DNA of 64,000 nt, taken from the IMG/VR virus record IMGVR_UViG_3300018080_008375, positions 35,822 to 99,821 of that record; one strand, written 5' to 3'. This document shows positions 4,797-13,081 of the stretch, one piece after another; position 1 is the first letter of the stretch; each line of letters opens with the position of its first letter. A program made the translations under genes and the position numbers. The stretch comes from a virus. The notes under the pieces are model-generated. The model was not told where the DNA came from and searched no databases. It saw only the letters and a list, made by a program, of their open reading frames with translations.

Positions 4797-5255
4797 ATGG
4801 GAAACAAGCCGTGGTACGGAGACTGGCACCTGCTGTACGAGCTTAGCAACAGCGGGGGACCGTATCCCTCCCCGCCCGCGCCGGGCGCCAAGGCGGTCCC
4901 GTTCGGATTCGAGGTTCCGAAGCATCCGTGGCCCGAGTGGCTGGACGGCAACTACAAGGTCCTGTCCAACCCGGCGTACAGGTCGTCGTACGACAGCAGC
5001 TCAGCGAGCGGCTCGATCGGAATATACAGCTTCGAGATCCGGGTGGTCCTCAAGGACGGCGTGAGCGAGGAAGCGGCCGTCGAGCGCCTGTACGCGTCGG
5101 GATGCGACGACGCACTGTTTGCCGTGTGCGACGGGGGCGTCAGGCTCGATTTCGACAGGGAAGCCGATTCTTTAAGCGAGGCGCTGGATTCGGCCTGCGC
5201 CGATATCATGAAATCCGGCGTTGCGCTGATGTGCGGCAGCAAAAAGATACGATAG
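4797..5255 (+). CDS. Hypothetical protein
   Basis: 152 residues. The N-terminal 60 are rich in Trp, Pro and Tyr (GDWHLLYELSNSGGPYPSPPAPG). The C-terminal 80 residues follow a recognisable pattern: a strand (FEIRVVLKDG), then RLYASGCDDALFAVCDGGVRLDFDREADSLSEALDSACADI, which resembles small alpha/beta proteins found next to toxins and in phages, with no assigned activity. AGGAGGAT precedes the ATG. Confidence 0.6.
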   Translation: MGNKPWYGDWHLLYELSNSGGPYPSPPAPGAKAVPFGFEVPKHPWPEWLDGNYKVLSNPAYRSSYDSSSASGSIGIYSFEIRVVLKDGVSEEAAVERLYASGCDDALFAVCDGGVRLDFDREADSLSEALDSACADIMKSGVALMCGSKKIR

Positions 5256-5266
5256 GAGGTTTCAAA

Positions 5267-5990
5267 ATGACAAACACAAGGAGGTCTCTTTGACAAGGCT
5301 CTTGTCGAGATAAGGGCCGCAGAAGGTGGAGACGACGCGAAGCTGCTTGTCTCGGACCTGTTCCAAGTCTACATGAAGTGGTGCCGCCGCCGCGGCTTCG
5401 AGGCTGACATGTCGTTCAGCGCCGAGGCTGGAGGCGGTTTTTCTTTGGTTGAATTCGTGGTGTCCGGAGACGGCGCGCGCGATGCGTTCATGAACGAAGC
5501 CGGAGGCCACAGGTTCCAGAGGGTGCCGCCAACAGAAAAGCGAGGAAGGAGACAGACATCCACGGTGACGGTGGCAGTCCTGCCGATAGCGTCCGAGACA
5601 GAAATGAGAATAGACCAGTCAGAGTTGTCATGGGAGGTGAAGCGCGGGAATGGAGCCGGAGGCCAGCATCGCAATGTTACCGAAAGCGCCGTTAGGGTGA
5701 CGCATGTTTCTACAGGCATTTCAGCCACATGCCAAGACGAGCGGTCCCAGCACCGCAACAAGAAGAGGGCGCTTGAGATACTGCGCGCCAGGCTTTTTGA
5801 CAAGGTGGAATCGGAATCCGCAGCTGAGGAAAATGCCAGGAGAAAGAAGCAGGTTGGGTCAGGAATGCGCGGGGACAAGATCAGGACCTACCGCTACCAG
5901 GACGGAAGGGCGGTGGATCACAGGACTGGCAGGAAGGTGAGGCTGGAAGATGTTTTGTCTGGAAACCTGGATGTTTTTCGAAAGGGCTAG
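5267..5990 (+). CDS. Truncated RF1-type peptide chain release factor, +1 frameshift at codon 9
   Basis: Translation starts at the ATG 5267 after TAGGAGG and reaches CTT TGA at 5288-5293 after eight codons; slipping +1 to GAC at 5292 opens a frame to 5990, giving 240 residues. The frame carries EIRAAEGGDDAKLL (start of the release-factor codon-recognition domain), the RF1-type PxT motif P87-P88-T89 in QRVPPTE, and the catalytic G131-G132-Q133 in GNGAGGQ. Normal RF1/RF2 have about 360 residues; the N-terminal domain is missing. PxT predicts recognition of UAA and UAG. The product should release nascent chains at stop codons and is the only phage termination factor seen. Confidence 0.88.
5279..5294 (+). 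promoter_or_regulatory. prfB-like programmed +1 frameshift site
   Basis: AGGAGG TCT CTT TGA C: an internal Shine-Dalgarno-like AGGAGG three bases before CTT, then an in-frame UGA followed by C. The bacterial prfB (RF2) site is AGGGGG TAT CTT TGA C with the same spacing. Without the shift the product is the eight-residue MTNTRRSL. Confidence 0.88.
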
Positions 5991-7150: not shown

Positions 7151-7187
7151 GTCGCACTCCTACTGATGGTCAGTTATATCTATTCGT

Positions 7188-7201
7188 GATTATTGATAGA
7201 A
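7188..7201 (-). promoter_or_regulatory. Copy of the 14-bp upstream motif, minus strand
   Basis: Read on the minus strand this is TTCTATCAATAATC, 38 bases before the start of the only minus-strand gene. The same bases on the + strand include GATAGAAT, which could also serve as a -10-like element for the divergent thg1 gene. Its orientation towards the minus gene is what makes the promoter reading persuasive. Confidence 0.5.
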
Positions 7202-7224
7202 TTTTGCCTAACAAGGATGGGACA

Positions 7225-7992
7225 ATGCTGTTCAAAGAGTTTGATGCGCGGATGCGCGTATACGAGACGGCGCACGACCAATGTGTTCTTCCTGGGGTAT
7301 ACATGGTTGCACGCCTTGATGGAAGGTGTTTTACGCGCCTTACAAAGGTACAAAGGTTTGAGAGGCCGTTTGACGTCGATTTTCGCGACCATATGGTCGC
7401 CGTTGCGTGCCACTTGATGCGCTGTGGATTCAACGCAACATACGCTTACATACAGAGCGACGAAATTTCGCTGCTATTTGATTTGGCAGAAAACACTTTC
7501 GGTCGCAAGCTGCGCAAGTTAAATTCCGTGCTGGCAGGGGAGGCAAGCGCTAAGTTCACAAAATGCCTCGGCGGAGGGGACATGGGAGTGTTCGATTGCC
7601 GCATTTCCCAGCTGCCGCGCACAGGCGATGTGGTTGATTACTTTCGCTGGAGGCAGGAGGACGCTTATCGCAATGCGCTACATGGTCACTGCTATTGGAT
7701 GCTTCGCGGCGATGGCAGGAGTGCTTCCGAAGCTACGAGCTTGTTAAGCGGCAGTTCGTCCTCCGACAAGCAAGAGCTGCTGTTTTCCAATGGGACGAAC
7801 TTCAACGGCATTCCATTGTGGCATAAGCGCGGAACTGGGATATATTGGGAAACATACAAGAAGAAAGCTGCCAATCCAGTTACCGGCGACAAAGTGGATG
7901 TCGAGCGCAGGCGCATTAGAGTTGATTTTGAGTTGCCGATACATGATGAATATGCGTTGTTCGTGCGCCGTCTGATCGGCGTTTTGACATGA
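7225..7992 (+). CDS. thg1: tRNA(His) guanylyltransferase / Thg1-like protein
   Basis: 255 residues from the ATG after AAGGATGG. Thg1 signatures are present: ARLDGRCFTRLT with metal-binding D32, and YIQSDEISLLF with D79-E80, the second acidic pair of the reverse-polymerase palm. Thg1 adds G-1 to tRNA-His, and the bacterial/archaeal Thg1-like branch repairs 5'-truncated tRNAs by 3'-5' templated addition. No tRNA-His is visible in this window, so repair of other tRNAs is possible. The sequence is somewhat more A+T-rich than its neighbours. It starts a divergent transcription unit. Confidence 0.88.
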   Translation: MLFKEFDARMRVYETAHDQCVLPGVYMVARLDGRCFTRLTKVQRFERPFDVDFRDHMVAVACHLMRCGFNATYAYIQSDEISLLFDLAENTFGRKLRKLNSVLAGEASAKFTKCLGGGDMGVFDCRISQLPRTGDVVDYFRWRQEDAYRNALHGHCYWMLRGDGRSASEATSLLSGSSSSDKQELLFSNGTNFNGIPLWHKRGTGIYWETYKKKAANPVTGDKVDVERRRIRVDFELPIHDEYALFVRRLIGVLT

Positions 7993-12691: not shown

Positions 12692-13081
12692 ATGGGATAT
12701 GTTCAGTACATCATAGTCCGCAAGGACCTGGTTACGGAGATGGGAATTGGAAAGACGGCCGCCCAGGTAGCCCATGCGTCGTTGGGCGCGATCCTGGACA
12801 AGGGGAAGCTGGTTGACGACCCCGCAGTGCGCGGGTGGCTGACCGGAGCTTTCACCAAACTGGTGGTGTACGCCAAGACCAGGCAGAAGCTCTTGAATCT
12901 TATAGGGAAATGCCGTGAAGCAGAACTCCGTGTTAAGCCGATTTACGATGCGTGCCGCACCAAGTTGGAACCGGAGGAGCCTGACGGCACCACGCTGACT
13001 TGCGTGGGGCTGTCTCCAGTGCGCGCCGATGAGGTGCCAAAGTTTCTCAAAAAGCTCAGGTTACTGGATGGTGAAAAATGA
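12692..13081 (+). CDS. pth2: Peptidyl-tRNA hydrolase, PTH2 family
   Basis: 129 residues, the full PTH2 length. YIIVRKDLVTEMGIGKTAAQVAHASLGA is the diagnostic N-terminus with the catalytic-site Lys/Ala/Gln/His set, and the end (TTLTCVGLSPVRADEV) matches the family's last strand. It cleaves the ester between peptide and tRNA, recycling tRNAs from stalled or aborted translation. PTH2 is typical of archaea and eukaryotes, and rarer in bacteria and phages. Start and stop overlap the neighbours by coupling (ATGA with the deaminase). Confidence 0.85.
   Translation: MGYVQYIIVRKDLVTEMGIGKTAAQVAHASLGAILDKGKLVDDPAVRGWLTGAFTKLVVYAKTRQKLLNLIGKCREAELRVKPIYDACRTKLEPEEPDGTTLTCVGLSPVRADEVPKFLKKLRLLDGEK

Follow-up and report, generated by a model that had tools for sequence, protein, structure and literature searches.

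Among the closest described counterparts of the gene reported here is bacterial prfB, in which Shine-Dalgarno (SD)-like purines, a spacer of 3 nt, the slippery codon CTT and a stop codon, usually followed by C, bring about a +1 slip that gives the full factor (PMC12421855, sections available). The same sections of this 2025 survey report no UAG in the prfB motif, and no convincing programmed shift in prfA (PMC12421855). The accessible part of a 2016 review by Atkins and colleagues states that among sequenced bacterial RF2 genes none carries an early UGA in frame after which reading goes on, and that the UAG counterpart in RF1 genes is likewise not known (PMC5009743). Every CUU-stop shift in the RECODE set of PRFect is prfB, and GeneTack discusses RF2 with no mention of prfA or RF1, both according to the portions of text available; the available text of a huge-phage paper reports RF1 and RF2 in huge phages with no mention of ‘frameshift’ (PMC7162821), and that of a jumbo-phage paper mentions a release factor a single time, naming RF2. 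None of the titles and abstract openings in the literature searched, which was covered partially, describes RF1-type genes gated in this way.

A viral release factor behind a recoded stop has been described in Mimivirus and Megavirus, where the gate of the class-I factor (R726, mg280) combines UGA-C readthrough, probably as Trp, with a shift at CUU UAG C or CUU UAA C (PMC3521657, sections available). This factor is of the eRF1 type, belongs to a eukaryotic virus and has only GGQ in common with bacterial release factors (PMC3521657, same sections); the protein is set apart here by that description, and its likeness to the phage genes below is one of the gate only. Both events occur in one Mimivirus gene, whereas in the phage family slip and in-frame stop are alternatives found in different members; since an unrelated protein has both devices, the resemblance looks like convergence. 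RF-H (PrfH), finally, is a class-I release factor without domain 1, according to the accessible part of its description (PMC1586002), and in this it resembles the phage protein.

The window, by which we mean the whole stretch of DNA analysed (64,000 nt), corresponds to G000:C1:35822-99821 in a virus record of 99,821 bases. Its release factor gene (5267-5990) is interrupted by an early stop codon, here called the gate, and has the following features.

5254..5259, + strand: AGGAGG ribosome-binding site serving the start ATG (sequence).
5267-5269, + strand: start ATG of frame 0 (sequence).
5267..5293, + strand: frame 0, ATG ACA AAC ACA AGG AGG TCT CTT TGA, encoding MTNTRRSL and a stop (sequence).
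5279..5284, + strand: internal SD-like AGGAGG, 3 nt 5' of the slippery codon (sequence; anti-SD duplex).
5288..5291, + strand: slippery CTT T, with CTT at 5288-5290 (sequence; CTT in 54/54 internal-shift relatives).
5291..5293, + strand: gate stop TGA, next base C (sequence).
5292..5990, + strand: +1 frame, a 232-aa RF1-type release factor without domain 1, from GAC at 5292 to TAG at 5988-5990 (Pfam, NCBIfam, model, Foldseek).
5526..5534, + strand: Pro-Pro-Thr, which we take to be the codon-recognition tripeptide of RF1 type, PxT (translation, alignment).
5658..5666, + strand: GGQ catalytic motif (translation, alignment).

The original prediction saw here a release factor expressed through a prfB-like +1 site and forming the classic self-regulating loop of RF2; the first part of this reading stands, and the second is not supported. 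The start ATG indeed lies behind a normal ribosome site, every element of the prfB site (SD-like purines, 3 nt, CTT, TGA, C) is present at canonical spacing in AGGAGG TCT CTT TGA C, and a +1 slip does open the frame that bears GGQ. Pairing of the internal AGGAGG with the anti-SD has a computed duplex energy of -12.1 kcal/mol. A search of both strands finds the pattern AGGRGGNNNCTTTGAC once in the 64 kb, and 100 shuffles give none; the relaxed pattern AGGNGGNNNCTTTGAC (2 mismatches allowed) gives 4 matches in the window against 5.49 expected, so that the weight rests on the perfect match where the two frames meet. Upstream, a TGA at 5268-5270 closes the +1 frame, whose earliest ATG, GTG or TTG is the ATG at 5373 (ORF 5373..5990); a protein started there would lack strand 2-9 and the greater part of helix 14-34 in the predicted fold.

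The encoded protein is of RF1 type by profiles, fold ranking and Pro-Pro-Thr, which sets it apart from the RF2 of the classic autoregulatory site. Its NCBIfam scores are 268.6 bits for RF1 (PRK00591), 189.9 for prfB and 98.4 for prfH, the RF1 model beating prfB by about 79 bits, and they lie under all curated cut-offs (RF1, 268.6 vs 400 and 264.2 vs 423.25; prfH, 98.4 vs 166.65). Pfam matches RF-1 over its entire length but PCRF only in its second half (positions 101 onward of 194), and domain 1 is thus missing. A profile of 20 family members scores 253 bits against RF1 among PDB sequences, 169 against RF2 and 90 against RF-H. The AlphaFold2 model of the window protein (mean pLDDT 86.7) matches ribosome-bound RF1 in Foldseek with a TM of 0.92 (by query length), RF1 being closest in the fold ranking. 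PxT is the tripeptide that recognizes UAA and UAG. Comparison shows the family to be of RF1 type, and the window's product is a phage-encoded factor of this type that should read UAA and UAG, closest to bacterial RF1 (prfA) in sequence and fold and sharing its PxT and GGQ, but differing from it in lacking domain 1, in its recoded-stop gate and in belonging to a separate phage family.

The members of this family were collected by likeness to the window protein and by patterns that favour EGGDDAK- and PPTE-like members and do not span the gate, so the 148 loci obtained are not a random draw. A tblastn search of phage records found huge phages with similar short factors amid many records that are apparently bacterial contaminants. 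Two phage-labelled records, OQ572403.1 (L009) and CAKLQH020000004.1 (L191), carry an ordinary bacterial prfB or prfA and are probably host DNA. In IMG/VR, a search with the window protein alone found no relative, and an earlier alignment (A1) was too diverse; scans with the small alignments A2 and A3 gave L010-L150, these being the best 80 of 82 and the best 80 of 375 relatives. The 148 loci comprise the window gene, six genes found in named phage records (L002-L007) and a further 141 from IMG/VR; L008 (Lak RF2) and L009 (the bacterial prfB, whose record is labelled Pseudomonas phage Y1) had been set aside before this count. The partial L089 was left out of clustering, the short L057 out of the tree, and L144 and L147 out of the counts of shift-site context; the eight 5' sites and the three intact genes were classed by eye.

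An early stop interrupts 145 of the 148 sampled genes, most of them from large phages, and the proportion is similar among representatives (119/122 at 90% identity, 88/91 at 70%, 58/61 at 60%). The layouts are a +1 shift inside domain 2 (54 loci), an in-frame stop (83: 72 with one TGA, seven with two, three with TGA and TAG, one with TAG) and a 5' shift (eight); L010, L016 and L119 are uninterrupted. Seventeen further viral loci include seven +1 genes, four with two in-frame TGA codons and six that could not be classed (L204, L206, L208, L209, L211, L212); among the 17, L199 is on the same contig as L095, and L207 has CTT TAA C. A search of 52 records for the RF-1 domain gave a single match in each. 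In this sample the early gate stop is shown to be kept in nearly all members through several layouts, and on sequence grounds the gate is strongly supported. An uninterrupted relative had been named in advance as grounds for rejecting the site, and L010, 52% identical and the closest relative found, is indeed intact; with 145 of 148 family members interrupted, this one sister does not refute the gate.

The recognition motif is variable across the family (PPTE in 121/146, PPN in 14, a shortened loop in L002, L023 and L086), so some members may differ from RF1 in the codons that they recognize. At a position usually occupied by His the window has Gln (GRRQTS), in common with 36 of 121 readable members, the other 85 having His. 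The shortened PxT loop of the family release factor at L002:1601-2143 (LR745208.1) reads QRTSNGR; those of L023 and L086 are similar.

The kind of site seen in the window, which was to be looked for in related phage genes, is present there. All 54 internal-shift loci have CTT before the stop, which is TGA in 44 and TAG in 10 and is followed by C in 38, G in 11, A in four and T in one; in 50 of them the gate stop lies 25 codons past the motif GG[DE]DAK. Among 47 representatives, 28 have GGAGG with a spacing of 3 nt to CTT, and 41 have some SD-like core. The mean anti-SD energy in these 47 is -7.94 at shift sites and -2.76 at positions chosen at random within the same genes, with -6 or lower reached at 36 shift sites vs 11.7% of the background. 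The position of the slippery codon, 24 codons past the motif, is Trp (TGG) in two of three bacterial RF1 rows and in L010, Phe in the third RF1 and the window, Leu in L016 and L119, and Tyr in L213 and L214. Of 5' sites, the window has CTT TGA C, as have L072, L075 and L076 (one stretch in three contigs), and L094 has CTT TAG C; three loci have tandem 5' pairs, namely L004 (CTT TAA C, then CTT TGA C), L115 and L121 (two CTT TAG C). The pair at L115:2390-2510, before one release factor, consists of AGGGGG CGG CTT TGA C and AGGGGG TGT CTT TGA A, two consecutive prfB-like +1 sites, so that two slips are needed. The window's exact 5' site was not found at close identity in any sampled gene, and the site of the window itself therefore rests on one sequence.

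A quick tree without bootstrap (90 family rows and five rows of bacterial RF1, RF2 and Lak RF2; 36 of 92 inner branches below 80) places the family on one side of a branch with SH-aLRT 99, apart from three RF1 and two RF2 rows. The window groups with the uninterrupted L010 (93, not starred), and the remaining 5' sites form a separate group (96), which makes two or more origins of the 5' site probable. On this tree the layout has changed at least 10 times, and within the internal-shift class TGA and TAG have been swapped at least 9 times.

In representatives with in-frame gates, 70 of the 73 gate stops are TGA and three TAG; 40 stand at the Trp position and the others 1 to 15 codons further 3'. 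The next base is A in 46, C in 19, G in seven and T in one, a U at +4 being a strong termination context. As a prediction only, position and context would fit readthrough by tRNA-Trp in a leaky context. Taken over all layouts, the 131 gates of 122 representatives use TGA 114 times, TAG 16 times and TAA once, whereas the terminators of the same 122 genes are TAA in 94, TGA in 18 and TAG in 10 (Fisher p about 1e-42, uncorrected for relatedness). These genes thus favour UAA, a codon recognized by both host factors, as their terminator but avoid it at the gate.

We regard it as probable that the window gene encodes a phage RF1-type factor without domain 1, made through a +1 slip, which reports on UGA termination and frees RF2 by acting at UAA and UAG. 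While the ribosome waits at the UGA at 5291, peptidyl-tRNA-Leu would slip +1 on CUU U, aided by the upstream AGGAGG; prompt termination at UGA by host RF2 would leave an 8-residue peptide, and slow termination would yield a 240-aa factor. The gene would in this way report the quality of UGA termination in the infected cell, chiefly the supply of host RF2. Its product, being of RF1 type, would take over termination at UAA and UAG and so free RF2, and would not close the UGA gate directly. We infer the efficiency of the slip, the UAA/UAG specificity and the sensing role from the features above. Points that weigh against this reading are the repeated interchange of TGA and TAG, which would be odd if the gate reported RF2 alone, the variable recognition motif, the scores under the RF1 cut-offs, and the uninterrupted genes (L010, L016 and L119, and L213-L215 in bacterial records).

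An unlikely alternative is that the gate senses nothing and is a constant attenuator that holds a harmful factor at a low level. Tandem gates and double in-frame stops, which would yield very low output, are in keeping with this, and so is the reduced fitness of B. subtilis on overexpression of RF1, a smaller effect than that of RF2 (PMC12421855, sections available). But a weak start site would attenuate more simply, and the restriction of the gates to UGA and UAG, each read by one host factor, with UAA avoided, suggests sensitivity to one release factor.

True self-feedback, in which the phage factor also reads UGA and its own level closes the gate, strikes us as distinctly unlikely. It could draw on the near-exclusive use of UGA or UAG at the gates, and on the variable recognition loop of the family with the window's Gln for the usual His; against it, PxT is intact in the window and most members, and the RF1 profiles win clearly. 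Because the product is of RF1 type, the UGA of the window should be read by host RF2 and not by the product, and because the product should read UAA and UAG, a UGA gate is not simple self-feedback in the manner of prfB. Feedback by an ordinary RF1 fits the TAG-gated members, in which the product would close its own gate, but not the UGA-gated ones.

Beyond the release factor, the following genes of the phage record bear on translation.

7168..7992, + strand: Thg1-type tRNA guanylyltransferase (Pfam).
12692..13081, + strand: peptidyl-tRNA hydrolase PTH2 (Pfam).
G000:C1:34615-34963 (L172:14615-14963): tmRNA gene with the tag ANEQFAMAA (Rfam, 107.9 bits), ending about 860 bases before the window.

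The record also has 30 tRNAs (13 and 13 in the outer regions, four in the window), among them Trp-CCA and a Leu-GAG that should read CUU. A megablast of 24 kb against phages matched 29 records, and all 20 matches listed are tRNA-sized and lie at one tRNA-Pro. The tmRNA, the 30 tRNAs, Thg1 and PTH2, and the lack of domain 1 shared with RF-H, would suit a factor that mainly rescues damaged or stalled ribosomes in the manner of RF-H, its gate detecting failed decoding, and yet this reading is improbable. The protein has an RF1-type motif, and RF-H gives the lowest of the three profile scores, 98 bits and under the cut-off. RtcB is the partner of RF-H; it is absent from the record of the window and occurs in 7 of 43 records searched, never beside the release factor gene.

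It is very improbable that members with in-frame TGA come from phages in which TGA encodes an amino acid in all genes, although huge phages with recoded stops exist (PMC7162821, available text) and in 9 of 41 regions the coverage under code 4 exceeds that under code 11 by at least 0.10, five of these regions being from the 20 in-frame-class records. Dropping any stop lengthens frames, and code 15 also gains 0.10 or more in 2 of the 41. TGA ends genes picked under code 11 in the window and in all of 40 regions except L175 and L186, including all 20 in-frame-class regions, and TGG is used throughout. With a recoded TGA, the nearby gene that follows on the strand would share its frame more often, and such sharing is least frequent after TGA (46/221, vs 72/241 after TAA and 32/94 after TAG), so TGA is a real gene stop in the sampled regions; in the 20 in-frame-class regions summed, 10 genes following TGA are in the same frame and 67 in another. 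Two control genes were matched in 51 records, DnaB_C at 32 places in 30 of them and the RNR large subunit at 35 places in 23, and none of these matches contains a stop; the window's own record has neither gene. No opal-suppressor tRNA (TCA anticodon) was found in the window or in 40 regions scanned, which cover most of the records only in part. Use of code 4 was considered for L003 and L005-L007, and 20-kb samples make it unlikely for the records of L005 and L064, the gate of L064 being that of L003. The phage record of L012 has a tRNA with a CTA anticodon (L176:5653-5726; Pyl according to ARAGORN), a possible amber suppressor.

Copies of the gene are also found in bacterial records. Among 46 loci from a scan of genome_contigs, 30 have a +1 gate, five an in-frame TGA, three are uninterrupted (L213-L215) and two unclear (L251, L256); the remaining six lack the motif and resemble ordinary RF1 (five Patescibacteria-type, one uncultured bacterium). 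The gate of L238 is CTT TAG C. Isolates with copies include Nannocystis exedens DSM 71 (L250), N. poenicansa (L253, complete chromosome), Minicystis rosea DSM 24000 (L223, complete chromosome), Pyxidicoccus fallax (L219, TAG) and, with in-frame TGA, Thalassospira xianhensis (L239) and Rhodovibrio sodomensis DSM 9895 (L231); interrupted copies are thus present in genomes of cultured myxobacteria. An RF-1-domain search of seven genomes gave as best matches, among others, two longer release factor frames (356 aa or more) in six and one in Pyxidicoccus, these being lengths of frames, not of genes, that do not assign RF1 vs RF2. Most of the other genome_contigs loci are on MAG contigs and may be misbinned phage, and a plasmid search (blastn) with the Nannocystis gene gave no match. 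In L251, from Nannocystis pusilla Na p29, apparent indels at the gate (CTTGAC vs CTTTGAC in its sisters) are either assembly error or real.

For the family as a whole, these copies in isolates, two of them on complete chromosomes, disfavour the extremely improbable view that the gates are sequencing or assembly errors or mark pseudogenes, a view that could point to the single metagenomic contig of the window and to the indel-bearing appearance of L251 and L204. Recurrence in 145 of 148 genes and an invariant CTT in the internal-shift class also stand against it, as do dN/dS values of about 0.1 on both sides. Six close pairs of the shift class give a pooled dN/dS of 0.08 in the N-part and 0.10 in the C-part, and 38 close pairs of the in-frame class give 0.06 and 0.09, all rough values with synonymous sites near saturation; judged from these pairs, purifying selection is shown to act on both sides of the gate. 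That the C-terminal frame is a separate, internally started protein is scarcely credible: 22 of 47 internal-shift representatives do have an ATG, GTG or TTG in the second frame no more than 60 nt 5' of the gate, but the window has none there, its first start falling inside the fold. Purifying selection also acts on the N-part as protein, and the slippery codon never varies.

The original prediction had seen one instance of a family-wide design. A wider reading of that design, which we hold as plausible but short of probable, is that large DNA viruses of bacteria and those of eukaryotes came independently to place their release factors behind recoded stops, and that a family of RF1-type factors of huge phages is switched on when termination at UGA or UAG fails, the gene acting as a cross-sensor of host RF2. 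In this family there appear to be RF1-type genes that use +1 shifts at UGA, at UAG and in rare cases at UAA, together with in-frame UGA, a few in-frame UAG and tandem shifts, in parallel with the unrelated protein of Mimivirus, and gene callers may split or miss such proteins. If the wider reading is true, the codon sensed would differ in most members from the codons that the factor reads, making the circuit something other than a self-limiting loop, and single or tandem +1 slips and single or double UGA readthrough would be interchangeable devices. The genes of Nannocystis and Minicystis offer cultured organisms for tests, and the family makes testable both viral monitoring of termination capacity and the question of why phages carry release factors at all.
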